A stretch of 64,000 nucleotides of DNA from Streptomyces sp. MMBL 11-1 (lineage in GTDB: Bacteria > Actinomycetota > Actinomycetes > Streptomycetales > Streptomycetaceae). Positions 31,541-53,178 of this stretch are shown here, piece after piece. How positions within the stretch are numbered: the stretch's first letter is position 1; the number at the start of each line of letters is the position of its first letter. Made by a program: the position numbers and the translations under genes. The notes under the pieces are model-generated. The model was not told where the DNA came from. It made no database searches and was given only the letters and a program-made list of their open reading frames with translations. The stretch lies in contig NZ_CP117709.1 of assembly GCF_028622875.1 (NCBI RefSeq), positions 2,418,001 through 2,482,000 of the forward strand, given 5' to 3'.

Positions 31541-34500
31541 ATGACGGAGAAGGATCTGATCGACAGAGGGACGGCCCGCCGGCCCTCCCCCTCCCTCTCC
31601 CCCGCTGTCTCCGTCGCGTCCGCCGCGTCCGCCCCCGCTCCTGACGCCCCCGCTCCTGACGCCTCCGCCCCTGACGCCTCCGCCCCTGACACGTCCGTCG
31701 CGTCCGGCGACAGCGCTTCCGGCACGCCCGGCGCTGCCCCGTCCGCGCGCTCACTCCCCTCCCCCTCCCCCTTCGAGGGTGCGGCCGGAGAGCCGTGGTG
31801 GCTGCCCGGCGTCGTCGGGAGCAGCACCTCCGGCGAACCCGGCTGGGCGGTCTTCGCCCGGGAGGCCGTCGCCGCGGCGCCGGGCGACGTGGTGGTCGCC
31901 GACCGGGCGTACCCCGGACTCAGCGGCTTCGCGCCGGTCGTCGCGCCCTTCGCGGAGGCGGCGGCGCTGCGGCTCCGGGACGCGCTCGCGGAGGACGGCC
32001 CGGCGGTCGACGGCGCGGTGGGCGGCCGGGCGACGGACAGCGCCGTGGGCGGCCGGGCGGCGGCCGGCCCGGCGGCGGACGGCTCCTCGGCCCTCCTCGC
32101 GGACTTCCGGCGGCAGCTGACGCGCCGGCTGTCCCGGATCGCGGCCCGCACTCTCGTCACGGAACTGCACGAGGCCCGGCGGCTGGGCCGGCTGAGCGGC
32201 GAGGGGTCCGAGGAGCGCTTCCGGGACTTCGTACGGCGGACCGCCCGCCGCGACGGTCTCGCCCTGCTCGTCACCGGCTACCCCGTGCTGGCCCGGCTCC
32301 TCGCGACGGCCTGCCTGAACGCGGGGGACGCGTTCGCGGAGATGGCCGCGCGGCTCGCCGCCGACCGGCACCTGCTGGCCCCGTCGGGGGTGCTCGGCGA
32401 CCGTGCCGGTTCACCGGAGCGCGGGCTCGGCGGGAGCGCGGGGCCTGGGGCCCTGGCCGGGGTCGAGGCCGGGGCGGGCGACAGTCATCGCGGGGGCCGC
32501 TCGGTGATGCTGCTGCGGTTCGCCGACGGCGCCCGGCTGGTCTACAAGCCGCGTCCGCTCGCGGCGCACCGGCACTTCAACGCCCTGGCCGAGTGGTTCG
32601 GTTCGCTGCCCGGCGCCCCGGAGCTGCGGGTGCTGCGGGTCCTGGACCGGGGGGACTACGGCTGGGCCGAGTTCGTCGAGGAACGGCCGTGCGCCTCGGT
32701 CGCGGAGACCCGGCTGTTCTACCGGCGCCAGGGTGCGCTGCTGGCCCTGCTGCACACGCTGGACGGTACGGACCTGCACCACGAGAACGTGATCGCCTGC
32801 GGTCCGCACCCGGTCCTGGTCGATGTGGAGACCCTGTTCCACCCACCGCTCGGGCCCGCCCGGTCCACCGATCCGGCCGCCCGGGCCCTGCACGACTCGG
32901 TCCACCGGGTCGGTCTGCTGCCCCAGTTGCTCGTCGGGGACACCACCGCACTCGACATGTCCGCCATCGGCGGGGGCCGGGCCGCGTCGTCGCCGATCGA
33001 GACCGCCGACTGGGCGGACACCGGAACCGACCGCATGCGGCTGGTGCGGCGGGCGGGCCGGTTCACCGAGTCCGCCAACCGGCCCCGGCTGGGCGGAGTG
33101 GCGGCCGATCCCTCCGCGTACACCGAAGCGTTGTGCGGCGGCTTCCGCGCCGGATACACCGCCATCAGCGAGCACCGGGACGACCTCGTGGGCGAAGGGG
33201 GGCTGTTGCGGCTCTTCGCGCGGGACGAGGTGCGCGTGGTGCCGCGCCCGACCTGGACGTACACGACACTGCTGGACGAGTCGACCCACCCCGACCTGAT
33301 GCGGGACGCCACCGAACGGCACCGCGTGCTCTCGTTGCTGCGCACCCCGCTCCTGGGCGTGCCCGCGCTGCCCGGAGTGGAGGACGAGGAGGTGGCGGAG
33401 CTGTGGTGCGGTGACGTGCCGGTGTTCGGCACCCGGCCGGGCGGTACGGAGGTGTGGAGCGGCACCGGCCGTACGGTTCCGGGGCCGGCCCACCACCGGC
33501 CGTCGCCCGACGGGCCCCCGCAGGACCGGACCGCACGTGACCGGAGCGCACTCGACGGGCCCCCGCAGGGCCGGGCCGCCCCCGACCGGGCCGCCGACGG
33601 CGGCGTCGAGCCCACGGGGCTGGCGCGCGTCGAGGCGAAGGTGCGCGCGATGGACACCGTGGACCGCCAGGACCAGGAACGGATCATCCGGACCGCCATG
33701 GTGAGCACCTCGCCCGAGCCGCCGCACCGGGCGGCGCCGGGCGGCCGGTCGCGGAGCGCGGCGACCGCCCCGGAGCCCGAGCAACTGCTCTCCGCCGCAC
33801 GGTCGGTGGGCGACCAGCTCGTCTCCCTCGCCTACCGGCACGAGGGCCGCACCAACTGGATCGGACTCGAACTGCTCGGCGAGCGCTACTGGCGGCTCAC
33901 GTCGATGGCCGCGGACCTCGCGGGCGGTTACACCGGCCCCGCCCTCTTCCTGGCGCAGCTGGCCGCGCTCACCGGCGCCTCCCGGTACGCGGAGGCGGCC
34001 CGCGAGGCGCTCGCCCCGGTCCCGGGGCTGCTGGACGCGCTGCACGGGCGGGCCGACGAGCTCGGGGCCCTGGGCTCCGGAGCCTTCGCGGGCCTCGGCG
34101 GCATCGCGTTCGCGCTGGCCGAGGTGGGCACGCTGCTGGGCGACCGGGAGGTGCTGGACCAGGCCGGTCCGGCCGTCCGGCTGAGCTGCGCGGCGAGCGC
34201 GGCCGAGGACGGGTACGGGGTGCGCGGCGGCGCGGCGGGCGGGCTCGTCTCGCTGCTCGCGGTGCACGGCGCCACCGGCCGCCCGGAGGCTTGGCGTGGC
34301 GCGGAGCGCTGCGCCGAGCGGATCGCCGCCGCCCCGCTCCCCGGGACCGGGGGCTTCGCCGACGGGGCGGCGGGGATCGGCTGGGCGCTGCTCCGCTTCG
34401 CCGGGGCCGGGGGTGACGCCCGCCACCGGATCGCCGGGCTGGAGGCCCTGCGCCGGGCGACGGCCGGAGCGACCCGCCTGACGACCGCCGGAGCGCCGCA

Positions 34501-34987
34501 CGACACGACCGCCGGGGCGCTCCGGCCAACCACCACCGGGGCGGCCGGCCGGACAAGCGCCGGAGCGGCCCGGGGAACGGCCGCCGGGCCGGCCTGGTGC
34601 GACGGGGTCGCCGGGATCGCGCTGGCGATCGCGGACAGCCCCGAGGCGCTGGCGGACCCGGAGCTGTCCGGCTGGCTCGCGGCGCGCTCCGGTGAGCTGG
34701 CGGACATCGGCCCGCTCGCCGACGACAGCCTGTGCCACGGAGAGTCGGGGCTGCTCGAACTCCTCGGCCACAGCGCGCTGCCGGCCGCACGGCCCGCGTG
34801 GATGCGCCGGGCCGGAACGCTGCTGGCCTCGGCGGACCGGGCGGGCCCGCAGTGCGGGACGCCCGGCCGCGTACCGCACCCGGGGCTGCTCACCGGGCTC
34901 TCGGGGATCGGGCACGGGCTGCTGCGGGCCGGGTTCCCCGACCGGATCGGGTCCGCGCTGCTCCTGCGCCCCTCCCGGACACCCTGA
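31541..34987 (+). CDS. lanM: Class II lanthipeptide synthetase LanM
   Basis: 1148-residue bifunctional enzyme that would dehydrate Ser/Thr and cyclise with Cys. The DUF4135 dehydratase half shows VYKPRPLAAHRHF, LDGTDLHHENVIACGPH and VLVDVETLFHP, matching LanM phosphorylation/elimination residues. The LanC-like half starts near residue 750 (GRTNWIGLELLGERYWRL) and has zinc-site motifs WCDGVAGIAL and LCHGESGLLELL. The N-terminus carries Ala/Pro/Asp repeats (APDASAPDASAPD). Low-complexity inserts lie between the halves and before the zinc site (TTAGAPHDTTAGAL region). The ATG at 31541 has GGAGG upstream. A Cys-free peptide follows in the same frame. Confidence 0.88.
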   Translation: MTEKDLIDRGTARRPSPSLSPAVSVASAASAPAPDAPAPDASAPDASAPDTSVASGDSASGTPGAAPSARSLPSPSPFEGAAGEPWWLPGVVGSSTSGEPGWAVFAREAVAAAPGDVVVADRAYPGLSGFAPVVAPFAEAAALRLRDALAEDGPAVDGAVGGRATDSAVGGRAAAGPAADGSSALLADFRRQLTRRLSRIAARTLVTELHEARRLGRLSGEGSEERFRDFVRRTARRDGLALLVTGYPVLARLLATACLNAGDAFAEMAARLAADRHLLAPSGVLGDRAGSPERGLGGSAGPGALAGVEAGAGDSHRGGRSVMLLRFADGARLVYKPRPLAAHRHFNALAEWFGSLPGAPELRVLRVLDRGDYGWAEFVEERPCASVAETRLFYRRQGALLALLHTLDGTDLHHENVIACGPHPVLVDVETLFHPPLGPARSTDPAARALHDSVHRVGLLPQLLVGDTTALDMSAIGGGRAASSPIETADWADTGTDRMRLVRRAGRFTESANRPRLGGVAADPSAYTEALCGGFRAGYTAISEHRDDLVGEGGLLRLFARDEVRVVPRPTWTYTTLLDESTHPDLMRDATERHRVLSLLRTPLLGVPALPGVEDEEVAELWCGDVPVFGTRPGGTEVWSGTGRTVPGPAHHRPSPDGPPQDRTARDRSALDGPPQGRAAPDRAADGGVEPTGLARVEAKVRAMDTVDRQDQERIIRTAMVSTSPEPPHRAAPGGRSRSAATAPEPEQLLSAARSVGDQLVSLAYRHEGRTNWIGLELLGERYWRLTSMAADLAGGYTGPALFLAQLAALTGASRYAEAAREALAPVPGLLDALHGRADELGALGSGAFAGLGGIAFALAEVGTLLGDREVLDQAGPAVRLSCAASAAEDGYGVRGGAAGGLVSLLAVHGATGRPEAWRGAERCAERIAAAPLPGTGGFADGAAGIGWALLRFAGAGGDARHRIAGLEALRRATAGATRLTTAGAPHDTTAGALRPTTTGAAGRTSAGAARGTAAGPAWCDGVAGIALAIADSPEALADPELSGWLAARSGELADIGPLADDSLCHGESGLLELLGHSALPAARPAWMRRAGTLLASADRAGPQCGTPGRVPHPGLLTGLSGIGHGLLRAGFPDRIGSALLLRPSRTP

Positions 34988-35068
34988 CTGAACCACGGGT
35001 TTCAAGGTTTCACGAACGAACATCACCACCACCACCACGACCACGACCACCCAGAGGATGAGGCAGAG

Positions 35069-35266
35069 ATGAAGCAGTACGGCGAATCGGCCCTGCAGGC
35101 GTCCGGCGAGATCGCGCACGAGGGCGCGCCCGAGCACCCGGCCGGGCAGATCTCCTTGGGGTCCACCGGAGGCCTCGGTGCGCGCGGCAGACTTCTCAGC
35201 GCCTCGGAGGGCGAGAGCGGCTACAGCCACGACCTTCCGTGGACCACCATGACCGCACCCTGGTGA
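35069..35266 (+). CDS. Cysteine-free 65-aa peptide, candidate LanM substrate
   Basis: 65-residue peptide beginning MKQYGESALQASGEIAHEGA and ending GYSHDLPWTTMTAPW, with no cysteine at all. A Gly-rich stretch LGSTGGLGARG could be a leader/core boundary. Size, position right after lanM and a good ribosome site (GAGG, 5-nt spacing) make it the best substrate candidate, but without Cys it could only be dehydrated, not given lanthionine rings unless Cys came in trans. The frame is the same as lanM, and the 27 intervening codons include six consecutive His followed by Asp-His-Asp-His. Confidence 0.6.
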   Translation: MKQYGESALQASGEIAHEGAPEHPAGQISLGSTGGLGARGRLLSASEGESGYSHDLPWTTMTAPW

Positions 35267-35345
35267 ACGATTTCGGCCAACTCAGGTGTCATTGAGCCGA
35301 ATTGGCCCGCTGCCGCAGGGGGTGGGGCTCCAGTAGCCTGCGGCC

Positions 35346-38273
35346 ATGCGAGCCACTTCGCCGGTCATCGTCGGGCGGGACGAGGAGATCGGACTCCTGA
35401 GCAGCGCCCTGGACGCCGTACAACGGCGTTCGGGGCGCGCGCTGTTCCTCCTCGGGGAAGCCGGTATCGGCAAGTCCCGGCTGGTGGGCGAGTGCGCCTA
35501 CCGGGCGTACGGGCTCGGCATGCCGGTGCTGCGCGGCCGGGCCACCTCGACCGGGCTCGTCGTCCCCTTCCGTCCGCTCGCGGAGGCCCTGGCCTCCCGG
35601 TTCCGGGCCGCGGGCACCCCGACCGATCCGGAGCTGGCGCCCTACCATCCGGCGCTGGCCCGGCTGGTGCCGGAGTGGCGCAGGGACGGCTCCCCCGGCT
35701 ATCCGGAGACGGTCGTGGAGCTGGCCGAGGCCCTGCTGCGGCTGCTGTCCGTGCTGGGCCGGGAGGCGGGGTGCGCGATCCTGCTGGAGGATCTGCACGA
35801 CTGCGACACGGAGACCGTGGCGGTCGTCGAGTACGTCATCGACAACCTGGCCGATCTGCCCATCCTGTTTCTGGGCACCCTGCGCCCGGAGCCGGGCGCC
35901 GCCCTGGACCTCGTACGTTCCGCCGAGCGCCGGCACACCGCGACGGTGCGGGAGATGGGACCGCTGCGCGACGACCGGGTGCGGGCGCTGACGGGCGCGT
36001 GTCTGGAGGCACGGCCGGAGGAGATACCCGAGGCGGTGCACCGCCGGCTGGCCGAACACGCGGCGGGCAACCCGTACTTGCTGGAGGTACTGCTGGCGGA
36101 CCTGCTGGACACCGGCCGGCTCCGCCGGACGGACGACGGGTGGGAGGCGGCGGAGCAGCCGGGCGGTGCGGTCCCCTCGGACATCGTCCGCAGCTGGGCC
36201 CGCAGGCTGGAGCGGCTGGACGAGCCGGTGCGGGACCTCCTGCTGGCGTCGGCCACCCTGGGCAGCCAGTTCTCGGTGCCCGTGCTCCAGACCGTCACCG
36301 GCTTCGAGGACCGGGCCCTGTTCACCCATCTGCGGTCGGCCGTGGAGGCCGGTGTCATCGCGCCGGACGGCGCGGCCCCCGACCGCTACACCTTCCGGCA
36401 CTCGCTGACCGCCGAGGCCCTGATCTCCTCGCTGGCGCCGGCCGAGCGCGCCTCGCTGGCCCGCCGCGCCGCCGGGGCCATCGAGCACTCCGGGCAGCCG
36501 CTGGACGAGGACGGGCGGCAGCTCGTGGCCTCGCTGCAACTGGCCGCGGGCAACCGGGCGGGGGCGGCCCGCCAGTTCGCGGAGGCCGGAAGACGGATGC
36601 TCGCTTCGGGAGCGCACGGCTCCGCCGTGGTGCTGCTGGAGCGGGCGCACCCGCTGGCCGCCGAGACCGACCGGGCCGCCGTCGCCGAGTCGCTGGCGGT
36701 CGCCCGTGCCGAGGGCGGCGACCTGGACGGCGCGCTGGCGCTGGCGGACGCGCTGCCGCCGGTCCCGGCGCGTTCCGAGGCCGCCGCCCGGCGCGGCCGG
36801 ACCCACATCGAACTCGCCTGGGCGGCCGTCATGGCGGAGCGCCCCGCCGACGCGGCGCTCCAGGTCGAAGCGGCCCGCGTCCTGCTCGGCCCGTCGCCGC
36901 CGCCGGGCCGCCGGGCCGCGCTCGTGGTGGTCGAGGGGCATCTGGCACTGCTTCCCGGGCACGGGCACGGGCACAAGCCCCGGGATCCGGCGGATTCCGA
37001 GCGGACCGTGCGGGAGGCCGCGGAGACCGCCGAGGCGGAGGGGCTGCCCGTGGTGGCCTGCCAGGCCTGGCAGTTACTGGCGCTGCTGCGGCGCGAGGAG
37101 GGCTTCGACGCCGCGGACGCCGCGCTGGAGCGGATGCTGTCGATCTCCACCGAGCACGCCCTGCCGGTCTGGCGGGTGGAGGCGTTGGTGCGGCTCGGGG
37201 CGAACGCCTTCCTGCGGACCGGGGACGCGGCCAGGCTGCTCTCCGCGCGGGCGGCGGCCACCGAGCTGGGCGCCCTGCTGCTGACCCGTACGGTCGACGG
37301 GCTGCTCGCGATGAACGCGGTGATGTGCGCCCGGTGGGAGGAGGCGCAGGAGATCATCGACCGCTCGGCGGAGGCCAGTGCCCGGGTCGGTGACCGGTCC
37401 GCCCACCGCTATCTGCTGCTGGCCGGGGCGACGATGGCCGCGCACCGGGGGCGGCGCCGGGAGATGGACCGGGCGCTGGCGGCGTTCCGGCGGGCCGGTG
37501 GCGAGCAGTCGCTGCTGGTGCCGCTCCGGTCGGGGCTGTGCCGGGCGTTCGGGGCGCTGCTGGAGGAGGACCGGGAGCGGGCGGCGGCGGGGCTGGACGA
37601 GGCGCTGGCCTGGGAGTCGGACCACCCGAGCTATTACTACCTGAGCGGGCGGTACGGGCTGCGCCCGCTGCTGCGGGTGCTGGCGGGCGAGGCGGACCGG
37701 GCGGATCTCGCGGAGGCGCGGGCGGCCCCGGGGGGCGCTCTCGCCTGGAACCGGCAGTTCCTGGAGCTGGCCGACGCGGTGCTGCTGGGCCGGGAGGGGG
37801 ACCCGGCCGGGGCCGCCCGGCTGATGGCGTCCTTCGACGGGGTCTCCACGCCCTTCCCGGTCGCCCGCCACCTGGGGCTGCGGCTGGTCGCGGAGGCGGC
37901 CCTCGCGGACGGGTGGGGTGAGCCGGTGGCGTGGCTGCGGTCCGCCGAGGAGTTCTTCTACGGGGCCGGGGTGCAGGCGGTCGCCTCCGCGTGCCGGGCC
38001 GCGCTGCGGCAGGCCGGGGCCAGTGTGGGCCAGCACCGGGGCGGCTGGGACCGGATCCCGTCGCCGCTGCGGGCCGGCGGGGTGACCCCGCGCGAGTACG
38101 AGGTGTTCGTCCTGCTGCCCGAGCGGCCGGGGAACCAGCAGATCGCCCGGCAGTTGTCCATCTCGCCCCGCACGGTGGAGAAGCACATGGCCAGTCTGCT
38201 GAGCAAGACCGGGCGCGCGGACCGGGCCGCGCTGTGCGAGTTCGCCGCCGAGTGCGCCGTCGAACCGGCCTGA
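35346..38273 (+). CDS. LAL-family LuxR transcriptional regulator (AAA ATPase + HTH)
   Basis: 975-residue large ATP-binding LuxR regulator. Walker A GEAGIGKSRLVGE is near residue 40, Walker B-like CAILLEDLHDCD near 145, followed by a long TPR-like helical middle. The C-terminal LuxR HTH is GVTPREYEVFVLLPERPGNQ then QIARQLSISPRTVEKHM, near residues 910-950. LAL proteins activate natural-product clusters. It sits 79 bases after the Cys-free peptide gene, same strand, suggesting control of the lanM unit, the LanKC unit or both. HTH residue usage is normal; no truncation. Confidence 0.9.
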   Translation: MRATSPVIVGRDEEIGLLSSALDAVQRRSGRALFLLGEAGIGKSRLVGECAYRAYGLGMPVLRGRATSTGLVVPFRPLAEALASRFRAAGTPTDPELAPYHPALARLVPEWRRDGSPGYPETVVELAEALLRLLSVLGREAGCAILLEDLHDCDTETVAVVEYVIDNLADLPILFLGTLRPEPGAALDLVRSAERRHTATVREMGPLRDDRVRALTGACLEARPEEIPEAVHRRLAEHAAGNPYLLEVLLADLLDTGRLRRTDDGWEAAEQPGGAVPSDIVRSWARRLERLDEPVRDLLLASATLGSQFSVPVLQTVTGFEDRALFTHLRSAVEAGVIAPDGAAPDRYTFRHSLTAEALISSLAPAERASLARRAAGAIEHSGQPLDEDGRQLVASLQLAAGNRAGAARQFAEAGRRMLASGAHGSAVVLLERAHPLAAETDRAAVAESLAVARAEGGDLDGALALADALPPVPARSEAAARRGRTHIELAWAAVMAERPADAALQVEAARVLLGPSPPPGRRAALVVVEGHLALLPGHGHGHKPRDPADSERTVREAAETAEAEGLPVVACQAWQLLALLRREEGFDAADAALERMLSISTEHALPVWRVEALVRLGANAFLRTGDAARLLSARAAATELGALLLTRTVDGLLAMNAVMCARWEEAQEIIDRSAEASARVGDRSAHRYLLLAGATMAAHRGRRREMDRALAAFRRAGGEQSLLVPLRSGLCRAFGALLEEDRERAAAGLDEALAWESDHPSYYYLSGRYGLRPLLRVLAGEADRADLAEARAAPGGALAWNRQFLELADAVLLGREGDPAGAARLMASFDGVSTPFPVARHLGLRLVAEAALADGWGEPVAWLRSAEEFFYGAGVQAVASACRAALRQAGASVGQHRGGWDRIPSPLRAGGVTPREYEVFVLLPERPGNQQIARQLSISPRTVEKHMASLLSKTGRADRAALCEFAAECAVEPA

Positions 38274-38558
38274 GGGGCGAGCACGGGGCCCACGCCCCCT
38301 TCCCCGGCCCGGCCACTCCCGGCCCGGCCAAGCACCGCCGGGTGGTCCCGCAGGGTCCCGGACCCGGGCCGCGCGCCGCCCCGGCGGTCCCGCCGTGGGG
38401 GCCGGGGCGGGCAACATGGGGGCGCCGGGCGGTTTCGGTCGGGTCACCGGGCGGAAGATGCGTGCGGGGCCCCGATGCGCGGGGGCCGGGGCGGCAGCAG
38501 GATCGGGACGTCCGCACGGCCCAGCCCGCCGCCCGTCCCTGTTCCCGGAGGCCCGCCG

Positions 38559-40565
38559 ATGACCCGACCTCCCGCCCGTACCGGCTCCGCCGGTGCGGTA
38601 CACGTCTCCCTGCTCGGTCCGCTCACGGCCCGGCTGGACGGCCGTGAGCTGCAGCTCGGTCCGCGAAAGCAGCGACTGGTCCTCGCCACCCTGCTGGCCC
38701 GCCCCAACACCCCCGTGCCGGTGGGTGTGCTGATCGACGCGGTGTGGCCGGACGACCCGCCCCGTACCGCCCGCAAGAACCTCCAGGTCTACGTCAGTGC
38801 CGCCCGCGCCCTCCTGGGGCCGGCCGGGGACGGGACCCGGCACCGGGTGGTGCACGGCTGCGGGGGCTACCTCCTGCGCATCGCCGAGGGCGAGCTGGAC
38901 ACGCTGCGCTTCGGGGCGCTGGCCCGCGCGGGGCGGGCGGCGGCCGGGCGGGGCGACCTGCCGGGCGCCGCCCGGCTGTTGCGTGAGGCGCTGGACCTGT
39001 GGGAGGGGCCGCCGCTGAACGACCTGCGGGACTCCGCCGAGGTCGCCGAGGAGGCCGACCGGCTGGAGGCCCGCTGTCTGACGGTGTTCGAGGACTGGGC
39101 GGAGGCCGAGATCGAGCTGGGCCGGGCCGCTGTCGCGGTGGACGGGCTGCGGGATCTGGTGGAGCGGCATCCGCTGCGGGAGCGGCTCCGGGCCGCCTGG
39201 ATGAACTCCCTGCACCAGTCGGGCCGGCAGGCCGAGGCGCTGGCGGTGTACGACGACTACCGGCAGCTGCTGGCGCGCGAGCTGGGCCTGGAGCCGAGTC
39301 CGGCGATGGCGGGGCTGTACCGCTCGATGCTCGGCCGGGGGCGCGAGGCCCGGCGGCCCGCCGCCGCCCGGGAGACGGTGAGCGCGGTGGCGCTGCCCGC
39401 CTGTACGGGGGCCTTCACCGGCCGCCGCGACGAACTGCGGGACCTTCTCGACGTGCTGGGCGGCGGCGAGGAGCGGGTGGTGGTCGTCTCGGGCCCGGCC
39501 GGGGCGGGCAAGTCGGCGCTGGCGGTCCGGGCGGCGCATCTGCTCGCCGACCGCTTCCCCGACGGCCGCGTCCAGGTCCGGGTGCGCCGGGAGGACGGTA
39601 CGGCGCGCGGCCCGGCGGAGGTCCTGGCGGAGCTGGGGCGGCTGTGCGGGGTGGCGGGCGCCGCCCCTGCGGGGCCGGAGGGCGGGCCGGGGGACGTCCG
39701 GGCGGCGGGGGCCCTCGCGGACGCCTGGCAGGGGTGGCTGGCCCGGCACCGGGCGCTGGTCGTCCTGGACGACGTGCCGGGCGAGGCGGCCGTACGGGGG
39801 CTGCTGCCGCGGTCCGGGCGGTGTTCCGTACTGGTCACCGCACGGGGGCAGTTGGCCGGGCTCGCCCCGGTGCACCGGATCGCGTTGCCCGCGCCGGCGG
39901 ACGGCGAGGCCCTGGAGCTGCTGGGGAAGCTGATCGGGGCCGGGCGGCTGCGGACCGACCCGGGTGCGGCGTTGCGGATCGTCCGGGCCTGCGGGGCGCT
40001 GCCCCTCGCGGTGGAGGTGAGCGGGATGCGGCTGGCGGTGCTGCGGCATCTGCCGCTGGCGGAGTACGCGGCCCGGCTGGAGGACCCGTCGGCCGCACTG
40101 GACGAACTGGTCGCCGGGGACGTCTCCGTACGGGACCGGATCGCGTCCGGCTGGCGGGATCTCGCGGACGGCGAGCGTCGGGTGCTGGGGCGGCTGGCGG
40201 GGCTCTCCGAGGACGGGGGGTTCACCCTGGACCGGGCCACGGCGGCGCTGGGCTGTGGGGAGCGGACGGCGATCCGGGCCGTCGAGTCGCTCATCCACGC
40301 CGGCGCGGTGACCTCGCCCGCCGGGGAGGTCACCGCGCATGCCGCGCTGTACGAGGTGCCGAGGCTGCTCGGCCTGTACGCCCGCGAGCGGGAGGCCCTC
40401 GCGCACGGCGGCGCACCCGCCGGCACCGGCGTACCGGTCACGCCCGCGCACCCCGGCGCACCGGCCCCGGCCCGCGTGCAGGGTCTGCCCCCGGCTCCGG
40501 CCCCGGATCTCATCGGCGTACCTGCCCGCGCGGTGGTGGCGGCCGGTCCGCTCAGCCCAGGGTGA
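38559..40565 (+). CDS. SARP-type regulator with NB-ARC-like ATPase domain (AfsR-like)
   Basis: 668-residue regulator. An N-terminal OmpR-like winged helix (VHVSLLGPLTARLDGRELQL, RKQRLVLATLLARPNTPVPV) is followed by the bacterial transcriptional activator domain with LREALDLWEGPPLNDL and LGLEPSPAMAGLY. An NB-ARC-like NTPase comes next, with Walker A VSGPAGAGKSALA and RALVVLDDVPGEAAV, then a short C-terminal helical part lacking the TPRs of full AfsR. SARPs bind heptameric direct repeats phased at 11 bp. The ATG at 38559 follows GGAGG. Its 3' end overlaps the convergent lanKC gene by 14 bp. Confidence 0.9.
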   Translation: MTRPPARTGSAGAVHVSLLGPLTARLDGRELQLGPRKQRLVLATLLARPNTPVPVGVLIDAVWPDDPPRTARKNLQVYVSAARALLGPAGDGTRHRVVHGCGGYLLRIAEGELDTLRFGALARAGRAAAGRGDLPGAARLLREALDLWEGPPLNDLRDSAEVAEEADRLEARCLTVFEDWAEAEIELGRAAVAVDGLRDLVERHPLRERLRAAWMNSLHQSGRQAEALAVYDDYRQLLARELGLEPSPAMAGLYRSMLGRGREARRPAAARETVSAVALPACTGAFTGRRDELRDLLDVLGGGEERVVVVSGPAGAGKSALAVRAAHLLADRFPDGRVQVRVRREDGTARGPAEVLAELGRLCGVAGAAPAGPEGGPGDVRAAGALADAWQGWLARHRALVVLDDVPGEAAVRGLLPRSGRCSVLVTARGQLAGLAPVHRIALPAPADGEALELLGKLIGAGRLRTDPGAALRIVRACGALPLAVEVSGMRLAVLRHLPLAEYAARLEDPSAALDELVAGDVSVRDRIASGWRDLADGERRVLGRLAGLSEDGGFTLDRATAALGCGERTAIRAVESLIHAGAVTSPAGEVTAHAALYEVPRLLGLYAREREALAHGGAPAGTGVPVTPAHPGAPAPARVQGLPPAPAPDLIGVPARAVVAAGPLSPG

Positions 40566-43158: not shown

Positions 43159-43169
43159 GGCGGTCCTCC

Positions 43170-45484: not shown

Positions 45485-45804
45485 GGCGGTCTCCATCCAC
45501 TCGTCACTGCGGGTCCGGGTCCGTGGGGCGCGCCCCTCGGTGTCCGGTGCGGCCGGCCGGTGCCTGCCGTTGCCGAGAAAGTTAGGAAGCCGGGCCTGGC
45601 GATCGCTTCGGCGGCGGTATGGCGTCGGTATCGGGCCAGTTCGGAGGGAGGGAAGCACTGCTTTCCGGCCTCGCCGACGGCCCCCGCACCCGCCCCCACC
45701 TGGGCCCATACCGCCGCCGAAGCCCCACCGGACCGTCCGTGAACCGGTGACGCGCAGCCTGGGTACGCACCCGACGCGCCCCGGCCCAGAAGGAGGCGGC
45801 CCGC
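45485..45804. other. 320-bp divergent promoter region of lanA2 and the radical SAM gene
   Basis: Contains no gene. It carries the 18-bp inverted repeat pair described separately, an 11-bp-phased CGGTAT direct repeat (45615 and 45626) and, on the minus strand, TAACTT around 45580-45590 as a possible -10 for lanA2. Confidence 0.6.
45605..45723. promoter_or_regulatory. Two inverted 18-bp sites in the lanA2 / radical SAM promoter region
   Basis: GCTTCGGCGGCGGTATGG (45605-45622) recurs as its exact reverse complement at 45706-45723, 83 bases apart. Each copy faces one of the divergent genes (121 bases from lanA2, 82 from the radical SAM gene). Next to the left copy CGGTAT repeats at 11-bp spacing, the phasing SARP activators use. 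Likely binding sites that switch on both units together. Confidence 0.7.
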
Positions 45805-46989
45805 ATGGAACTCGCCGAACTCGTCTCACGGCGGCCCTACCCGGCCGCCGGTCTGCTCCTCGGCCTCACCCGGCGCTGCCCCCTGCGCTGCGCGCACTGC
45901 TCGACCGGGTCGGACCTGTTCGCCCGGGAAGAGCCGGACGCCGGTCAACTGGAGCGCTTCGTCGGCTCGTTCAACGAGGAGAACCGGCCCGACGTCGTGA
46001 TGCTCACCGGCGGGGAGCCGCTGCTGCTGCCCGCGCTCGCCGAACGGCTGAGCGTGCTGGCGCACCGCGCCGGGTCCCGTACCGCGCTGCTCAGCGGCAT
46101 GTTCTTCGCCCGGTCCGGGAACACGCGGCCGGACGGCAACCGGCCGGGGAGCCACCGGGGCCGTGGGGACGGCGGGACCGGCCGGACCGGCCGGGGCGGG
46201 AAGGCGATTCCCCCCGCGATCCTGCGCGCGATCCGGTCCGTCGACCATTTCTCGGCCTCCCTCGACGTCCACCACGAGCGGGAGGTCCCGCGCGCCGACG
46301 TGTTCCGGGCCCTGCACCGGATCCGGGACGAGGGCGTGGCCGTGAGCTTCCACCTCACCGGGACCGGGGCGTCCGACCCGTATCTCGCCGACATCACCCG
46401 GGCGGTGGAGAAGGAGTTCGGCGGCCGGGTCCCCTGTCTGGTCAACGAGGTGCGGCCGTTCGGCCGGGCGGCCTCCTGGGCGAGGCCCGCCCGGATCGGC
46501 CCCGACCCGGCGGTGGCGTCGCCGTGCTCGATGGCCGCCTGGCCCGTGGTCGCCTTCGACGGCCGCGTGCTGGCCTGCTGCAACCAGGACACCGTCGACC
46601 AGCGGCCCGTCCCGGCCCATCTGGACCTCGGGCACATCGGCGTCGACGACTGGGCGACCGTGCGCCACCGGGCGCTGGAGTCCCCGGTGCTGCGCATGCT
46701 CCGCGCGGTGGGGCCCGCGCATCTGGCCGCCCGGTACGGCTCCGGCCCCCCGGCGGGCTCCTACTGCGACGGCTGCCGGGCTCTGGGCGGCGACGAGGCG
46801 GCGGCGGCCGGAGCCCTTGCGGTGGCGGGCGGGGCGGCCGGAGCGCTGCTGGACCTGACGGCCGCGGTGCGCGGCGCCCGGGAGGGTGCGCAGGGTGTCG
46901 TGCGCCGCCACGGCTGCGCGGAGTACGCACCGCTGGTCGTCGCGGGCGGGTCTCCGGCGCCGGAGACCGACGCCCCGGATGTCCGATGA
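45805..46989 (+). CDS. Radical SAM enzyme, RiPP-maturase-like
   Basis: 394-residue radical SAM protein. Cluster motif CPLRCAHC (Cys 25, 29, 32) is CxxxCxxC, followed by VVMLTGGEPLLLPAL (the GGE SAM motif). C-terminal cysteines in VLACCNQDT and SYCDGCRALG suggest an auxiliary SPASM/twitch-like cluster. A Gly/Arg/Asp-rich insertion near residue 110-130 (RPGSHRGRGDGGTGR) is unusual. The ATG follows AAGGAGG and the stop overlaps the next gene as ATGA. Divergent from the lanthipeptide operon; substrate may be the 72-aa protein, the LanA peptides or another peptide. Confidence 0.85.
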   Translation: MELAELVSRRPYPAAGLLLGLTRRCPLRCAHCSTGSDLFAREEPDAGQLERFVGSFNEENRPDVVMLTGGEPLLLPALAERLSVLAHRAGSRTALLSGMFFARSGNTRPDGNRPGSHRGRGDGGTGRTGRGGKAIPPAILRAIRSVDHFSASLDVHHEREVPRADVFRALHRIRDEGVAVSFHLTGTGASDPYLADITRAVEKEFGGRVPCLVNEVRPFGRAASWARPARIGPDPAVASPCSMAAWPVVAFDGRVLACCNQDTVDQRPVPAHLDLGHIGVDDWATVRHRALESPVLRMLRAVGPAHLAARYGSGPPAGSYCDGCRALGGDEAAAAGALAVAGGAAGALLDLTAAVRGAREGAQGVVRRHGCAEYAPLVVAGGSPAPETDAPDVR

Positions 46990-47741
46990 GCGCGGTGGCC
47001 GGCGGCACGCGGCTCGGGCGCGCGGGGGCCTCCGCACGCCTCCGGGTCAAACTCCGCCTCCTGGAGCCGGAGTTCCGGGCGGCGACGCATCATATGTGGC
47101 GGTCCGATGGGCTGTTGCCGCGCTACCGGACGTATCTGTGCACCATGCACGCCGTCATCCGCGCCTCCGTCCCGCTGATGGAGCTGGCCCTCGGCCGGGC
47201 TCGCGCCCGGGCCGCGTCCGGCGATCCGCTGGCGGCACCGCTCGCCGCGTACCTGGAGAAGCACATCCGGGAGGAGGAGGGCCATGACGCCTGGCTGCTG
47301 GAGGACCTCCGGGCGGCGGGCGGCGCACCCGAGGACGCGCTGGGTCCGCTGCCCCCTCCCCTGGTCGCCTCGCTCGTCGGGTCCCAGCACTACTGGATCG
47401 AGCACCACCACCCGGTCGCCCTGCTCGGCTACATCGCCGTGCTGGAGGGCTACGCGCCGGCCCCCGGCCTCACCGGCCGCATCGCCCGGCTGACCGGGCT
47501 GCCCGCCGCCGCGCTGCGGACCGTGCGGGAGCACTCGGTGCTCGACACGGAGCACCTGGACGAGCTGTACGCGCTGCTGGACCGGCTGCCGCTCGGCCGG
47601 GGGCCCGAAGCGGCCGTGGCGGTCAGCGCACTGCACTCCCTCGACGCGCTCACCCAGCTGTTCGTCCGGCTCGGGCGCTCCGCACCGGCGCCGTCGCTGC
47701 GGGGAGCCGGACCTGTCCCACCGATGGGAGCCACACCATGA
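46986..47741 (+). CDS. Haem-oxygenase-like di-iron oxidase (iron-containing redox enzyme family)
   Basis: 251-residue all-helical protein. Probable iron ligands lie in EKHIREEEGHDAWLLEDL (Glu and His), in YWIEHHHPVALLGYIAVLEG and in SVLDTEHLDELYALLD, the spacing seen in HDO-type non-haem di-iron oxidases and the related TenA/PqqC fold. Such enzymes desaturate, cleave or oxidise amino-acid or fatty-acid substrates. Both ends overlap neighbours by ATGA, so it is translationally locked to the radical SAM enzyme and the 72-aa protein, implying a stepwise pathway. Exact reaction unknown. Confidence 0.75.
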   Translation: MSAVAGGTRLGRAGASARLRVKLRLLEPEFRAATHHMWRSDGLLPRYRTYLCTMHAVIRASVPLMELALGRARARAASGDPLAAPLAAYLEKHIREEEGHDAWLLEDLRAAGGAPEDALGPLPPPLVASLVGSQHYWIEHHHPVALLGYIAVLEGYAPAPGLTGRIARLTGLPAAALRTVREHSVLDTEHLDELYALLDRLPLGRGPEAAVAVSALHSLDALTQLFVRLGRSAPAPSLRGAGPVPPMGATP

Positions 47742-47956
47742 CCGGACCACCCCAGGACGAGGAACGGCCCGCGCTGCCCGACGCGTTGTACGAGGCGGGC
47801 TTCCCCGTGGACCTGCTCACCGAGGAACAGCGCGAGGTCCTGAGCGGACTGACCCCGCAGGAACTGGACGTGCTGCTGGACATCAGGAGGCGGCTGGACG
47901 CCGTGGGGCCGGAGGTCCAGGCACACGGCGAGATCGCCGGCGGAGCGCTGTTCTGA
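47738..47956 (+). CDS. 72-aa small protein of the radical SAM unit (candidate RiPP precursor or carrier)
   Basis: 72 acidic residues: MTGPPQDEERPALPDALYEA, then LLTEEQREVLSGLTPQELDVL, and an end QAHGEIAGGALF. There is no Cys. From memory it resembles small Streptomyces proteins that some annotations call aroma-sacti cluster domain proteins, found beside radical SAM genes; not verified here. The helical middle plus short GEIAGGALF tail suit a leader with a tiny core. Overlap with the oxidase gene (ATGA) and a 13-bp terminator hairpin directly after mark it as the end of the operon. Confidence 0.7.
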   Translation: MTGPPQDEERPALPDALYEAGFPVDLLTEEQREVLSGLTPQELDVLLDIRRRLDAVGPEVQAHGEIAGGALF

Positions 47957-47972
47957 CCGGAGACCGATCAGC

Positions 47973-48165: not shown

Positions 48166-48188
48166 GCCCCCGGGAGAGAAGGACCGCC

Positions 48189-51100
48189 ATGAACTGCCCC
48201 TCGTGCCAGCAGGATCTGCCGCCGACGGCCCGGTTCTGTTCGTCCTGCGGGACGCCGTGCGCGACCGCCGCCGCCACCGGGACCGGACCGGCCCCCGCCG
48301 CGCCGCACGGTGACGAACGCAAGCCGGTGACCGTGCTGTTCTGCGATCTCGTCGGGTCCACCGCGCTGTCCGGGGTGCTCGACCCGGAGACGCTGCGCAC
48401 GGTGACCCTGCGGTACTTCGAGGCGATGAGTGCGGAGATCGTGGCGCGGGGCGGGACCCCGGAGAAGTTCATCGGGGACGCGGTGATGGCGGTGTTCGGC
48501 GTACCGGTGGTCCGTGAGGACGACGCCCGCCGGGCGCTGGCGGCGGCGCTCGGGATGCGCCGGGCGCTGGCCCGGCTGAACGAGGAGCTGGAGGCCACCC
48601 TGGGCATCGAACTGGCCACCCGGATCGGCGTCAACACCGGTCAGGTGGTGGCGGGTTCGGACACGGACGCACGGCAGGCCCTGGTCTCAGGGGAGACCGT
48701 CAACATCGCCGCCCGGCTGGAGCAGAACGCGGGCAGCGGCGAGATCCTCATCGGCCCGGGGACCCTGCTCGCCGCCGGCCCGACGGTGAGCGCCGAGCCC
48801 ACCGGGCCGCTGCGGCTGAAGGGCAAGCGGGACAGCGTGGAGGCCTATCGGCTGCTGGCGCTGGGCGCGGACGACCCCGAGCTGCTGCGCCGCTTCGACG
48901 TCCCCTTCGTCGGCCGCGACGCCGAGCGGCAGGCGCTGGACACCGCCCTGGAACGGGCCGCGCACGGCGGCGGGGCCGGACCTCTGCGGGTCACCGGGGA
49001 GGCGGGCATCGGCAAGACCCGGCTGGTCCGGGAGTGGCTGGCGCGGCGGTCGGCGTCCGGAGTGCTCGCGTACGGCGCGGGGCGGTGCCGCAGTTACGGG
49101 GACCACGGCACCCTCGCCCCGCTGGCCGACGCGGTACGTTCGCTGGTGGCGGCCGGGCTCACGCCCGAGCCCCCGCCCGGGCCAGGTCCCGGGCCCGCGC
49201 CCCGCCCCGCGGACGACGCGAAGGACGCGGCGGGCGGGCTGGCGGTCGACGACGCGATGGCCCTGCTGTCCGGGGGCCTGCTGCGCGACGGCACGCCGAA
49301 CGCGCCCTTCGAGGACATGTGCGCGGCTCTGACGGCGGTCCTGGAGCGGGCCGCCCGGGCCCGCCCGGTCGTCCTGGTGCTGGACGACTGGCACGCGGCG
49401 GCCCCACTGCTGGTCCGCACGGTGCACCGGCTGACGGACGGGCCGGGGTGCGCGGGGGTGCTGGTGCTCTGCGCCGGGCGGCCCGACGGGCCGGACGGCG
49501 CGGAGGGTGCGGACGGGCCGGACGAGGGGGGCGGGCTTCCCACCGGTGCGGGGCGCCTCCAGCTCACCGGACTGCCGCCCGAGGAGGCGGCGCGGCTCGC
49601 CGCCGGTCTCGCCGGTCCGGGCGGCGGGCCCGCCCCGGTGGACGACCGGCTCCTCGCCCGGGCCGGGGGCAATCCGCTCTACCTGGAACAGCTCCTGGTC
49701 GGCGACCGGCCGGACCCGGCGGTCGCCTCCCGCCCGGGGGAACCGGCCGCCGAGGAGGACCTGCCGCCCACGCTCCAGGCCCTGCTGGGCGCGCGCATCG
49801 GGGCCCTGGCCAGGGCGGAGCGCGGGGTGGTGGACCTGGCCGCGGTGATCGGGCGTGAGTTCACCGCCCCGGAACTGGTCCGGCTGGAGCTGTCCGTGCG
49901 GGCCGGGGAGGGCCACGAGGCCGGGCAGCCGGCCGGGGCGACCGGTGCGGCCCCCGAGCACCGGCGACGCGTCGAGGAGGTGCTGGCGGTGCTGGGCCGG
50001 CGCCGTCTGGTGGAGTCGGGGCCGCCGGGGGGCCGGGAGGCGGCGGCGTACCGGTTCAGCAGCGGACTGGTGCACGAGGTCGCCTACGCCTCGCTGTCCA
50101 AGCGGGCCAAGGCGGAACGCCATGCCTGGGCGGCGGAGCTGCCCAGCGTGCTGCGGAGCGGCGACGGCGCGGTCGGCGGCCACCTGGAGCGTGCCTACCG
50201 CTACCGCGCGGAGCTGGGCCTGCTGGACGACCGGGCCCGGCGGCTGCGCGAGCGGGCCGCCGCCGCGCTGGGCCGGGCCGGGGCGCAGGCCGCCGCCCGG
50301 TCCGACCTGCACTGGGCGCACGGTCTGCTGGAACGGGCGGTGGACCTGTGCCCCGGGGACCCGGCGGCGACGCGGCGGCTCGGCGAGGTACGGGTGGCGC
50401 TGGGCCGCACCGGGGAGGGGGCCGAACTGCTCCGCCGGGTAAGGGACTCGGGGTCCGACGCGGTGGAGGCCGCGCATGCCCGTCTCGCGCTGGCGGTGCT
50501 GGATCCGGGCGGTCCGGGCCCCGGCCCCGCCGCCGTGGCCCGTGCCGTGCTCCCGGTCTTCGAGGCGGCCGGGGACTCGGCCGGCCGGGCGCGGGCCCAT
50601 CTGCGGCTCGCCCAGCAGTTCCAGCGGTCCGGGCGGCACGAGGAGGCGGAGCGGGACCAGGCGCGGGCCCTGGAGCACGCGGTGCTGGCGGGCGCGGAGC
50701 CGGAACGGGCCGGGGCGCTCGGCGCGATCGGTGTCTCCCTGTGGCGGGGGCCGGTTCCGGTGCCCACCGCGGTGATCCGCTGCCGGACCCTGCTCGCGGC
50801 GCACGGGGCGGGCCGGCCCACGGTGCGGGTCACCCTCAACTGCCCGCTGGCAGTGCTGTACGCGCTCCAGTACCGGCCCGACGACGCCTACCGCTGCCTG
50901 GCCGAGGCGGAACGGCTGGCCGGGAAGCTGGGGTTCGCCGAGGCGGAGGTCTTCCTTCCGGTGTTCCGGGCGACGGTGGAGGCGCTGCTCGGCAACGGCA
51001 CGGAGGCTCTGGACCTGCTGGACCGGGCGGACACGGCGGCCCGGCGCACGGGGGCGGCCGGGATGCGGACGGCGGTGGCGCTGGACGCGGCCCGCCTCGA

Positions 51101-51485
51101 CCTGGACGCGGGCCGGGAGGAGCGGGCGGCCGTCCGGCTGGCGGGTGTCGGGGACACCTCGGGGCTGAGCCGCGCGGACGCGGTGGACCTGGCGGGGCTG
51201 CGGTCCCGGCTGGCGGTGCGGGACCGCCCGGAGGAGGCGGCCGAGCGCGCGGACCGGGCGGTCCGGGCCTCGCTGCTCACGGATTCCCCGCTGGTGCAGG
51301 CGACGGCCGAGCTGGACCGGGCGCACACGCTCGCCGCCCTGGGCCGGTGGCCGGAGGCCGGGGCCTCGGCCCGGTCGGCCGGGGCGCACTTCACGGGCAA
51401 GGGGCATCTGCCGGGGGCGCGCCGGGTCGCCGGGTTCCTCACGCACCCGCCCCGGCCCATGGCCACGACGAGGGAGAGGAGCTGA
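48189..51485 (+). CDS. Zinc-ribbon / class III adenylate cyclase / AAA ATPase / TPR signalling protein
   Basis: 1098-residue multidomain protein. A zinc ribbon (CPSC...CSSC, Cys 3, 6, 18, 21) is followed by a class III nucleotide cyclase domain with KPVTVLFCDLVGSTALSG and FIGDAVMAVFGVPVV, then TRIGVNTGQVVAGSD. An ATPase with Walker A GEAGIGKTRL near residue 270 and VVLVLDDWHAA comes next, then roughly 500 residues of TPR-like helices. This layout is known from actinobacterial regulators that couple ATPase/TPR sensing to cyclase or decoy cyclase domains. Start follows GAGAAGGA. The next gene begins 4 bases after its stop. Confidence 0.88.
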   Translation: MNCPSCQQDLPPTARFCSSCGTPCATAAATGTGPAPAAPHGDERKPVTVLFCDLVGSTALSGVLDPETLRTVTLRYFEAMSAEIVARGGTPEKFIGDAVMAVFGVPVVREDDARRALAAALGMRRALARLNEELEATLGIELATRIGVNTGQVVAGSDTDARQALVSGETVNIAARLEQNAGSGEILIGPGTLLAAGPTVSAEPTGPLRLKGKRDSVEAYRLLALGADDPELLRRFDVPFVGRDAERQALDTALERAAHGGGAGPLRVTGEAGIGKTRLVREWLARRSASGVLAYGAGRCRSYGDHGTLAPLADAVRSLVAAGLTPEPPPGPGPGPAPRPADDAKDAAGGLAVDDAMALLSGGLLRDGTPNAPFEDMCAALTAVLERAARARPVVLVLDDWHAAAPLLVRTVHRLTDGPGCAGVLVLCAGRPDGPDGAEGADGPDEGGGLPTGAGRLQLTGLPPEEAARLAAGLAGPGGGPAPVDDRLLARAGGNPLYLEQLLVGDRPDPAVASRPGEPAAEEDLPPTLQALLGARIGALARAERGVVDLAAVIGREFTAPELVRLELSVRAGEGHEAGQPAGATGAAPEHRRRVEEVLAVLGRRRLVESGPPGGREAAAYRFSSGLVHEVAYASLSKRAKAERHAWAAELPSVLRSGDGAVGGHLERAYRYRAELGLLDDRARRLRERAAAALGRAGAQAAARSDLHWAHGLLERAVDLCPGDPAATRRLGEVRVALGRTGEGAELLRRVRDSGSDAVEAAHARLALAVLDPGGPGPGPAAVARAVLPVFEAAGDSAGRARAHLRLAQQFQRSGRHEEAERDQARALEHAVLAGAEPERAGALGAIGVSLWRGPVPVPTAVIRCRTLLAAHGAGRPTVRVTLNCPLAVLYALQYRPDDAYRCLAEAERLAGKLGFAEAEVFLPVFRATVEALLGNGTEALDLLDRADTAARRTGAAGMRTAVALDAARLDLDAGREERAAVRLAGVGDTSGLSRADAVDLAGLRSRLAVRDRPEEAAERADRAVRASLLTDSPLVQATAELDRAHTLAALGRWPEAGASARSAGAHFTGKGHLPGARRVAGFLTHPPRPMATTRERS

Positions 51486-51488
51486 CCG

Positions 51489-52568
51489 ATGACGACCACG
51501 GAGCCGGAACGGCCGCGCACGGAAACGGAACAGCCGCGTACGGAGCCCCAACGGCCGCGTACGGAGACGGCACGGCCGCGTACGGAAACGGAACGGCCGA
51601 GCACGGAGACGGCACGGCCCCTCACGCAACCGGAACGATCACAGCCGGGGCCGGGGCAGCCGGGGCCGGGACCGGGGCAGCCGTGGACGGCCCCCGGCGC
51701 ACGCGGGGCCCCGGGGCAGGGGCTGACCTGGAGTCTGCGCGGGCGCGGCCCCGATGACGTACCGGTGCTGGCGGACGCCGGACCGCCGGGCGGACGCCCC
51801 GCCGGGCCCGCCACCGGGCGCGGCGTACGCGTGTGCGTGGTGGATTCGGGCGTGGAGCGGGACCATCCGCTGATCGGCCCGCTGGCCGGTTCCTGGGTGG
51901 TCGTCAAGGACGGGGAGAGCGGGGAGATCACGGTCGAGCCGACGACCACCGGAGACACCTGCGGGCACGGCACCGCGTGCGCGGGCATCGTCCGCCGGAC
52001 CGCCCCGGAGTGCGAGATCCACAGTGTGCGGGTGCTCGGGGAGCGGTTCTCCGGCACCGGGGACGTCCTGATGGCCGGGCTGCGCTGGGCGGTGGAGCAG
52101 CGCTTCGACGTGGTCAACCTCAGCCTGTCGACCACCCGCACACGGTTCGCGCAGGAGCTGCACAACCTGGCCGACAGCGCCTACTTCGCCCGTACGGTGA
52201 TCGTCGCCTCGGCCCACAACACCCCGGTGGAGAGCTTCCCCTGGCGGTTCGCCTCGGTGATCTCGGTGGGCAGCCACCAGGAGGACGACCCCGAACTGCA
52301 CCTGTACAACCCGGACCCCCCGGTGGAGTTCTTCGGTCCTGGCCAGAACGTGACCGTGCCGTGGCTGGGCGGCCGGACGATCCGCACCACGGGGAACAGC
52401 TTCGCCACGCCGTACGTCGCCGGGCTCTGCGCCCGCGTCCTGTCCGCGCATCCGCGGATGACGGCCTTCCAGCTCAAGAACGCCCTCTATCTGTCCGCGG
52501 CCAATGTGCGCCACGCGCCGCGTCCTTCCACTGCGGCAGGAGATATCCGTGATGACTCCGAGAACTGA
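51489..52568 (+). CDS. Cytoplasmic subtilisin-like S8 peptidase
   Basis: 359 residues. The catalytic triad is complete: Asp in RVCVVDSGVERDHP, His in CGHGTACAGIV and Ser in TTGNSFATPYVAGLC, with the oxyanion Asn in VIVASAHNTP. No signal peptide or propeptide is visible. Instead the first 50 residues are RPRTET-type repeats encoded by roughly 30-bp DNA repeats. A cytoplasmic S8 next to peptide-modifying enzymes could be a leader peptidase; alternatively it is regulated by the co-transcribed cyclase-ATPase and GAF proteins. Four bases separate it from the upstream gene; its end overlaps the GAF gene by 17 bases. Confidence 0.9.
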   Translation: MTTTEPERPRTETEQPRTEPQRPRTETARPRTETERPSTETARPLTQPERSQPGPGQPGPGPGQPWTAPGARGAPGQGLTWSLRGRGPDDVPVLADAGPPGGRPAGPATGRGVRVCVVDSGVERDHPLIGPLAGSWVVVKDGESGEITVEPTTTGDTCGHGTACAGIVRRTAPECEIHSVRVLGERFSGTGDVLMAGLRWAVEQRFDVVNLSLSTTRTRFAQELHNLADSAYFARTVIVASAHNTPVESFPWRFASVISVGSHQEDDPELHLYNPDPPVEFFGPGQNVTVPWLGGRTIRTTGNSFATPYVAGLCARVLSAHPRMTAFQLKNALYLSAANVRHAPRPSTAAGDIRDDSEN

Positions 52569-53178
52569 TTCCGCCCCCTCCTCCTCCCTCTCCCCCACCG
52601 CCGCCGCGGTCGCCGACGCGCCGCGCAGCGAGCTGCTCCAGTCGGTCGTCGACGTGGCCCGCGCCATCTTCGGGGCGGAGGCCAGTTCGGTGTTCCTGCT
52701 CGACGAGGAGGCGGACGAGCTGGTCTTCCAGGCCGTGTCCGGGCAGGGCGAGGAGTTCCTCGTGGGCCGCCGGTTCCCGGCCGGCCGCGGGATCGCCGGG
52801 TGGGTGGCGACCTCCGGCGAGCCGATGGTGGTGGACGACCTGAGCGCCGATCCGTCCTTCGACCGCTCGCTGGCCGAGTCGACCGCGTACGTGCCGAACG
52901 CCCTGATGGCGGCTCCGCTCATCAGCGACTCCCGGGTCCTCGGCGTGCTGGAGGTGCTGGACCCCTCCCCGCAGGCCCGGTCGGGCGTCCGGGAGCTGGA
53001 CCTGCTCGCGATGTTCGCCCGACAGGCCGCCGCCGCCCTGCGGGTGATCACCCCGGAGCGGGTGCGGGAGGCCGAGCAGCGCGCATCCTCCTTCACCGGC
53101 GCGCTGGAGGGCGCGCGGCGCGAGGACGCGCTGAAGCTGCTGGGTAGCCTGGAGCGACTGCTGCGGGGCGTCGGCTGA
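52552..53178 (+). CDS. GAF domain protein
   Basis: 208-residue single GAF-domain sensor: ELLQSVVDVARAIFGAEASS, then SVFLLDEEADELVFQAVSG, RRFPAGRGIAGWVATSGEP and AAPLISDSRVLGVLEVLD are the standard strands and helices. A C-terminal helix (ALKLLGSLERLLRGVG) may dimerise. There is no output domain, so it likely binds a small molecule (possibly a cyclic nucleotide from the adjacent cyclase; inference) and acts by protein contact. AGGAG supports either the GTG at 52549 or the ATG used here. Last gene of the three-gene signalling operon. Confidence 0.88.
   Translation: MTPRTDSAPSSSLSPTAAAVADAPRSELLQSVVDVARAIFGAEASSVFLLDEEADELVFQAVSGQGEEFLVGRRFPAGRGIAGWVATSGEPMVVDDLSADPSFDRSLAESTAYVPNALMAAPLISDSRVLGVLEVLDPSPQARSGVRELDLLAMFARQAAAALRVITPERVREAEQRASSFTGALEGARREDALKLLGSLERLLRGVG

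Follow-up and report, generated by a model that had tools for sequence, protein, structure and literature searches.

A five-residue motif shared by unrelated peptide precursors in a compound RiPP locus of Streptomyces sp. MMBL 11-1

A locus at positions 31,541 to 53,178 of a 64,000-nucleotide stretch of the Streptomyces sp. MMBL 11-1 genome (the whole stretch is called the window here) encodes three machineries for ribosomally synthesized and post-translationally modified peptides (RiPPs), and the precursors of two of them, LanKC and a radical SAM enzyme (rSAM), carry the same pentapeptide, [DE]VxAH. The motif reads EVEAH in both LanA leaders, EVQAH in the rSAM-associated precursor SactA and EVTAH in the SARP regulator; it is missing from the other 19 of the 23 window proteins that were checked. 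What look like three unrelated kits thus appear, from sequence comparison, to be two kits with a common regulator, protease and five-letter tag, together with a third, separable kit. We put at about 0.62 the probability that the LanKC and rSAM parts are one co-regulated and co-processed system making at least two separate peptides, in which [DE]VxAH would be the processing site of a cytosolic S8 subtilase. An earlier, sequence-only reading had placed class II, class III and rSAM/oxidase machineries, LAL and SARP regulators and a cyclase/subtilisin/GAF operon within 22 kb, and family profile matches confirm that gene content. The locus is made of known enzyme families, arranged as a tag-sharing, cassette-swapping system with the following parts (units I and II are defined below).

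31541..34987, + strand: LanM, class II lanthipeptide synthetase, unit I; matches TIGR03897, DUF4135 and LANC_like, aligns to LicM2 and CylM
35069..35266, + strand: p65, a 65-aa Cys-free peptide and candidate LanM substrate, unit I; conserved among relatives, no family match
35346..38273, + strand: LAL-type LuxR regulator, unit I; AAA_16 and GerE; accompanies LanM-p65 in genome G075
38475..40565, + strand: SARP (BTAD and NB-ARC) with EVTAH close to the C-terminus, unit II
40552..43158, - strand: LanKC, class III lanthionine synthetase, unit II cassette; NF038151 (880.7 bits), RamC_N and solved homologues
43170..44618, - strand: MFS exporter (PF07690); start set at MATSLR from conservation
45076..45228, - strand: lanA2 precursor, MSENT start; EVEAH, VLDLQ and core GNCISVLSVVE
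45323..45484, - strand: lanA1 precursor, MSENT start; EVEAH, VLDLQ and core GNCISVLSVVE
45605..45723, no strand: operator-like region; GGTAT pair at 11-bp spacing plus an opposed copy that completes an 18-bp perfect inverted repeat
45805..46989, + strand: radical SAM enzyme with N-terminal CxxxCxxC (PF04055), core of unit II
46986..47741, + strand: HOx, heme-oxygenase-fold oxidase (PF14518; model and fold matches)
47738..47956, + strand: SactA, 72-aa precursor with EVQAH before the tail GEIAGGALF (NF045560; conservation)
48189..51485, + strand: cyclase/AAA-ATPase/TPR protein (PF00211, PF13191)
51489..52568, + strand: S8 subtilase with hydrophilic N-terminus (PF00082), proposed reader of the tag
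52504..53178, + strand: GAF-domain protein (PF01590)

One motif in precursors of different chemistry

To survey the motif, a single filter was applied to 80 loci (1.59 Mb; loci and genomes carry L and G numbers below). It returned 119 small open reading frames (ORFs) with [DE]VxAH, SactA and in-frame SARP fragments included, whereas six control motifs gave 3, 2, 1, 0, 0 and 0. Of the 74 loci that have the S8 gene, 62 encode a tagged peptide apart from SactA. In multi-core precursors the motif stands before each core, with 3 to 12 matches per precursor (L129, L132, L134, L136-L139, L141), and in L124, L142, L143 and L145 it follows LSLQ and lies directly before the core. The largest number of matches, 12, is found at about position 8260 of L138, in a 314-aa precursor with WCI(A/V)H-type cores. 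The motif accompanies the cyclase-S8-GAF genes and not rSAM, because four loci (L153-L156) combine SARP-LanKC-MFS-LanA, with a tagged LanA, and cyclase-S8-GAF in the absence of rSAM, HOx and SactA; their genomes gave no SactA match.

LanKC scores 880.7 bits against the class III profile NF038151 (cut-off 575) and 246.6 against RamC_N; its weaker parts are a single Pkinase match of 30.3, just below the cut-off of 31.7, and LANC_like at 23.5 versus 23.2. LanA1 and LanA2, tandem duplicates of each other, share the layout ENTKP..PEVEAH-S-VLDLQ..core, in which VLDLQ supplies the LxLQ leader element, and neither has an NCBIfam match. The class III core motif is given as S-x2-S-x(2-5)-C in PMC8960859, and the LanA core reverses it to C-x-S-x-x-S. 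Among 111 proteins of the leader family, 78 show the reversed order behind LxLQ and 8 the canonical one; of the 78, 75 contain a single Cys downstream of LxLQ. All 111 carry [DE]VxAH, although the profile used to find them was itself derived from motif-bearing sequences. One member, P0042, bears the UniRef name FxLD family lantipeptide.

Among relatives, ENTxP..[DE]VxAH stays constant while the remainder of the precursor varies, and whole cassettes are exchanged behind the same leader (L047, L062, L063-L066). L062 pairs a LanKC 34% identical to that of the window with a canonical SxxSxxC core. In L047 other sequence takes the place of VLDLQ and the core, and the new core, ICGVYDKE, lies beside rSAM, methyltransferase and MFS genes; in L063-L066 a GCIVNNSSD-like core stands behind the retained leader. 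Its neighbors in L063 are an rSAM, a DUF6895 protein, an MFS protein and a 402-aa protein lacking a Pfam match, a putative glycosyltransferase judging from its N-terminus. A DUF6895 epimerase is named in the title of a work cited in PMC13352647. Tagged precursors with NNSD- or NGSS-type cores also occur away from the core locus (L086, L087, L088), in genomes that have the core as well (G115, G066, G070).

SactA ends in PEVQAHGEIAGGALF, with EVQAH immediately preceding the tail GEIAGGALF. It scores 82.5 against the aroma-sacti domain NF045560 (cut-off 30) and 27.1 against the StsA-related profile NF045559 (cut-off 75), and contains no Cys. A sactionine is impossible in a peptide without Cys, so we rejected SactA as a sactipeptide. 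The rSAM is likewise not of PqqE or mycofactocin type, scoring 23.7 against 381 and 13.7 against 265, respectively. HOx, by model and fold matches, has the heme-oxygenase-like oxidase (HDO) fold, and its E97, H100, E154, H183, D187 and H190, residues of a putative metal-binding type, are invariant among 35 sequences. The tails of SactA relatives finish in GGALF, GGVVW or GGLFF, which suggests that rSAM and HOx may act at the aromatic end of the tail. In L147 (G184), three adjoining SactA-type matches, two of them read with the ends GGVVW and GGLFF, lie near an rSAM 42% identical to that of the window.

In the three loci L089-L091 the two precursors agree with each other: both aroma-sacti precursors carry VEGQ in L090 and L091, and both precursors carry VxAH in L089. 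Few as these loci are, such a co-change is what would be expected if motif and reader vary together. L090 and L091 each have one aroma-sacti domain in a longer ORF just before the cyclase gene, in L090 behind a LuxR-like part. The candidate reader, the S8 protein, has the subtilisin triad and fold, and its hydrophilic N-terminus shows no evident signal peptide.

Divergent promoters, SARP and a separable LanM unit

In the lanA1-rSAM intergenic region two CGGTAT boxes are spaced 11 bp apart, and a further copy in opposed orientation creates an 18-bp perfect inverted repeat. SARP operators are typically direct repeats at 11-bp spacing, and the predicted operator shows this spacing in 26 of the 30 regions read, as a GGTAT pair; the opposed copy is found in 28 of 30, and L063 and L066 have neither. 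The window contains the exact pair a single time, away from both LanM and LAL. The non-coding sequence upstream of LanM, p65 and LAL contains no copy of the repeat at up to three mismatches, and we rejected control of LanM by these repeats; two three-mismatch matches fall inside the LanM ORF, and one two-mismatch match lies at 15032. A single-site pattern with three mismatches does not exceed chance (5 matches against 3.23 expected), so the weight falls on the perfect pair and on how well it is conserved. The repeats support the predicted co-regulation of the LanKC and rSAM genes; the earlier proposal of common control is thus supported for these two parts and not for LanM.

The SARP may itself be linked to processing. 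It reads AGEVTAHAALYEVPRLLGLYA where other SARPs of the genome read PGRYRYHDLVRLYA or LGRYQLHDLTRAFA, placing EVTAH in a loop near residue 618. Among the fetched loci, 74 of 88 SARP-like ORFs have [DE][VI]xAH within their last 140 residues; the other 14 include truncated, frame-broken (runs of N), divergent and unrelated ORFs, such as those with EVTSH in L123 and L128 or VEGFAH in L150 and an unrelated one in L091. None of eleven other BTAD proteins of the genome shows the motif in the part read (three complete C-termini, eight running off the stretch), and L157, L159 and L167 have a hairpin with no insert. The EVTAH loop seems to be absent from canonical homologues within this genome. Taken together, the SARP is a possible S8 substrate.

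To place these genes in relatives, we searched 150 Streptomyces genomes for SactA (>100 bits), p65 and the leader family, and 200 genomes at family level for the leader family and SactA. Counts refer to loci and not to lineages: several genomes were sampled under two labels (as with G115 contig 17 and S. anulatus JCM 4721), one contig is listed as both L024 and L149, and L041 and L050 contain runs of N. The order LanM-p65-LAL-SARP-LanKC-MFS-LanA-rSAM is kept in all 11 close relatives (L051-L061); HOx and SactA come next in 11 of 11 matching stretches (L002-L012) and the cyclase in 10, L005 ending before it. Of 30 named loci (L021-L050), 26 have LanKC, three (L021, L024, L048) stop short of its place, and L047 has the different cassette described above.

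SactA was found in 22 of the 150 Streptomyces genomes, p65 in 17 (16 of them with SactA) and the leader family in 20, 19 of which have SactA, the exception (G144) being a weak match. The LanA type of the window occurs in 12 genomes, the source genome counted. The independent occurrence in most related genomes that would have reduced the units to neighbors was not seen, since all 12 have p65 and the rSAM core; yet 5 of the 22 SactA-core genomes have no p65, none of this LanA type and, in the stretch read, no LanKC. The units are therefore separable. At the family level, 32 of 200 genomes have the leader family, 27 with a SactA match; of the other five, four have cyclase-S8-GAF (G216 left out).

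The same separation is seen locus by locus. The rSAM-SactA pair stands without LanKC in the stretches of L063-L069 and, more generally, 29 of the 74 S8 loci have rSAM and SactA but no LanKC match; at most 25 of these are informative, as at least four (L024, L149, L127, L142) stop before the LanKC place. Conversely, 4 of the 74 have LanKC without rSAM and SactA.

LanM behaves differently. It scores 651.9 against the class II synthetase profile TIGR03897 (cut-off 304), and dehydratase and cyclase motifs are retained by eye in an alignment to LicM2. Its neighbor p65 is conserved in 11 of 11 close loci. Of the ten named relatives L041-L050, nine have it, and in all nine stretches fetched LanM and LAL are adjacent; in L048 and L050 it sits on a different contig from the core, so that these two do not speak for linkage to it. 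No family profile, NCBIfam included, matches p65. We infer that p65 is the LanM substrate, although the window p65 has none of the Cys residues of class II substrates. Within its family (L081-L085, L093-L101) some relatives have a single Cys of variable position.

In G075 (L085), DUF993-GFO-LacI-LanM-p65-LAL is followed directly by AP2-GH3-S37, the right-hand neighbors of the window, and the entire SARP-to-GAF block is missing at the same chromosomal place. In nine core genomes (L062-L070) rSAM-HOx-SactA-cyclase-S8-GAF is present; three of them (G057, G004, G015; L082-L084) retain LanM, p65, LAL and SARP upstream, and G041 (L081) retains p65-LAL-SARP with no clear LanM. This natural gap and the core genomes define unit I as LanM-p65-LAL and unit II as SARP-cassette-core. 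The best explanation for unit I is probably a second, separable, tagless system held at the same place, which agrees with the earlier suggestion of merged clusters as far as this unit goes; a functional tie is supported, by order, repeats and precursor motif, for LanKC with the rSAM part. Upstream of LanM, at 30337-31292, the window also encodes a DUF6232 protein and a 114-aa partner, which part of the close relatives share.

Proposed pathway and competing explanations

In the pathway we propose, SARP would act at the 11-bp-spaced repeats of the lanA1/rSAM interval and turn on both divergent operons. LanKC, a synthetase by family, would read VLDLQ and then dehydrate and cyclize the LanA cores, with their Cys ahead of two Ser, while rSAM and HOx would modify the Cys-free SactA tail GEIAGGALF. 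The cytosolic S8 protein, with its fold and triad, would cut the LanA and SactA precursors at [DE]VxAH, their one common element, releasing from SactA a short Cys-free tail. The MFS protein would export the LanA product, the cyclase-ATPase and GAF proteins may sense or gate the system. Relatives replace the LanKC cassette by others whose precursors retain the tag.

Several observations weigh against this pathway. Under the filter, 12 of the 74 S8 loci have no tagged peptide other than SactA, although L118, counted among the 12, encodes a LanA. Three of the 22 core genomes (G024, G095, G108) show no leader, and many loci are close relatives, some being one genome twice. The weakest step concerns LanA, whose tag precedes VLDLQ: cutting at that point would retain a leader remnant and call for further trimming.

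The hybrid product raised by the sequence-only reading, in which rSAM and HOx would also act on LanA to give a peptide with both link types, would account for the divergent adjacency, the common repeats and the common motif, and a Cys ahead of its acceptors, as in the 78 reversed cores, is reminiscent of sactipeptides. We consider it unlikely, as rSAM-HOx has its own adjoining precursor in SactA and occurs without LanKC in the stretches read, and LanKC-LanA with cyclase-S8-GAF occurs without rSAM, HOx and SactA in L153-L156; a single product is not what separate precursors and mutual independence suggest. Slightly less probable still is that the clusters are simply co-inherited within one clade with no step in common. 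The flanks, DUF993-GFO-LacI and AP2-GH3-S37, are indeed syntenic in relatives as well, and LanM-p65-LAL is alone at that slot in G075, but the common precursor motif, the exchange of cassettes behind one leader and the tagged cassettes away from the core in core-bearing G115 and G066 (L086, L087) speak otherwise. For LanM versus the remaining units, such mere neighborhood is still likely.

Somewhat better placed, if also improbable, is that [DE]VxAH serves as a docking motif for the cyclase-ATPase, the GAF protein, the exporter or a modifying enzyme. The motif tracks cyclase-S8-GAF as a block, from which sequence alone does not single out S8; SARP has it too, and in LanA it lies away from the core. 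Cutting by S8 better fits the repetition before each core and the junction position, the joint change of both precursors in the VEGQ relatives L090 and L091, and the precedent, in excerpts of PMC10885120, of an S8 protease with EVE.

Related systems and implications

That precedent, a leader S8 protease of class III systems with a (T/S/A)EVE motif (AmyP type; excerpts of PMC10885120), is the closest for the proposed tag cutting, sharing LanKC, an LxLQ leader, the S8 protease and an EVE-containing site; here, by contrast, the motif is [DE]VxAH, stands before LxLQ, is common to unrelated precursors and accompanies a C-x-S-x-x-S core. Actinobacterial class III clusters usually contain no leader protease, according to PMC7268733. 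Aroma-sacti and StsA-related systems (NF045560, NF045559) share with SactA the NF045560 domain and an adjoining rSAM, but SactA falls below the NF045559 cut-off and lacks Cys. Cyanobactins (PatA/PatG; PMC10885120, in part) likewise combine a subtilase with a recognition sequence per core, as in our relatives; here no macrocyclase was seen, one tag serves several unrelated tailoring cassettes, and the window S8 matches the PatA-family profile weakly (29.9 bits, cut-off 421). The Var cluster has a heme oxygenase-like protein, VarO, a repeating precursor and an MFS protein, with YcaO/TfuA chemistry in place of rSAM (excerpts of PMC6511847). LanM has the dehydratase and cyclase domains of class II lanthipeptide systems and differs from them in its conserved Cys-free neighbor p65 and its LAL regulator. 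Our searches of open-licence papers found no description of this locus, of an EVEAH lanthipeptide, of aroma-sacti or of a shared-protease arrangement.

More tentatively, the comparisons can be joined into one picture, a modular RiPP chassis of the Streptomycetaceae with an S8-cut SARP loop and Cys-first LanKC rings, which as a whole we regard as possible but doubtful. One S8 protease, together with cyclase, GAF and SARP, would process chemically unrelated precursors through the pentapeptide [DE]VxAH, and the cassettes would be exchangeable because processing goes through one common tag. The same protease may also cut its activator SARP, closing a loop between peptide processing and transcription, and in this lineage LanKC would build rings from a Cys ahead of the dehydrated serines. 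The locus raises three chemical questions: the reversed C-x-S-x-x-S core, the Cys-free partner of LanM and the Cys-free product of rSAM and a heme-oxygenase-fold protein. Should the tag prove to be a common processing site, it would offer a handle for finding many unannotated precursors, both single and multi-core, and the S8 protein would become a candidate leader protease with sequence specificity for class III pathways. If true, this arrangement would illustrate how Streptomyces swaps RiPP chemistries behind one unit of maturation and control.

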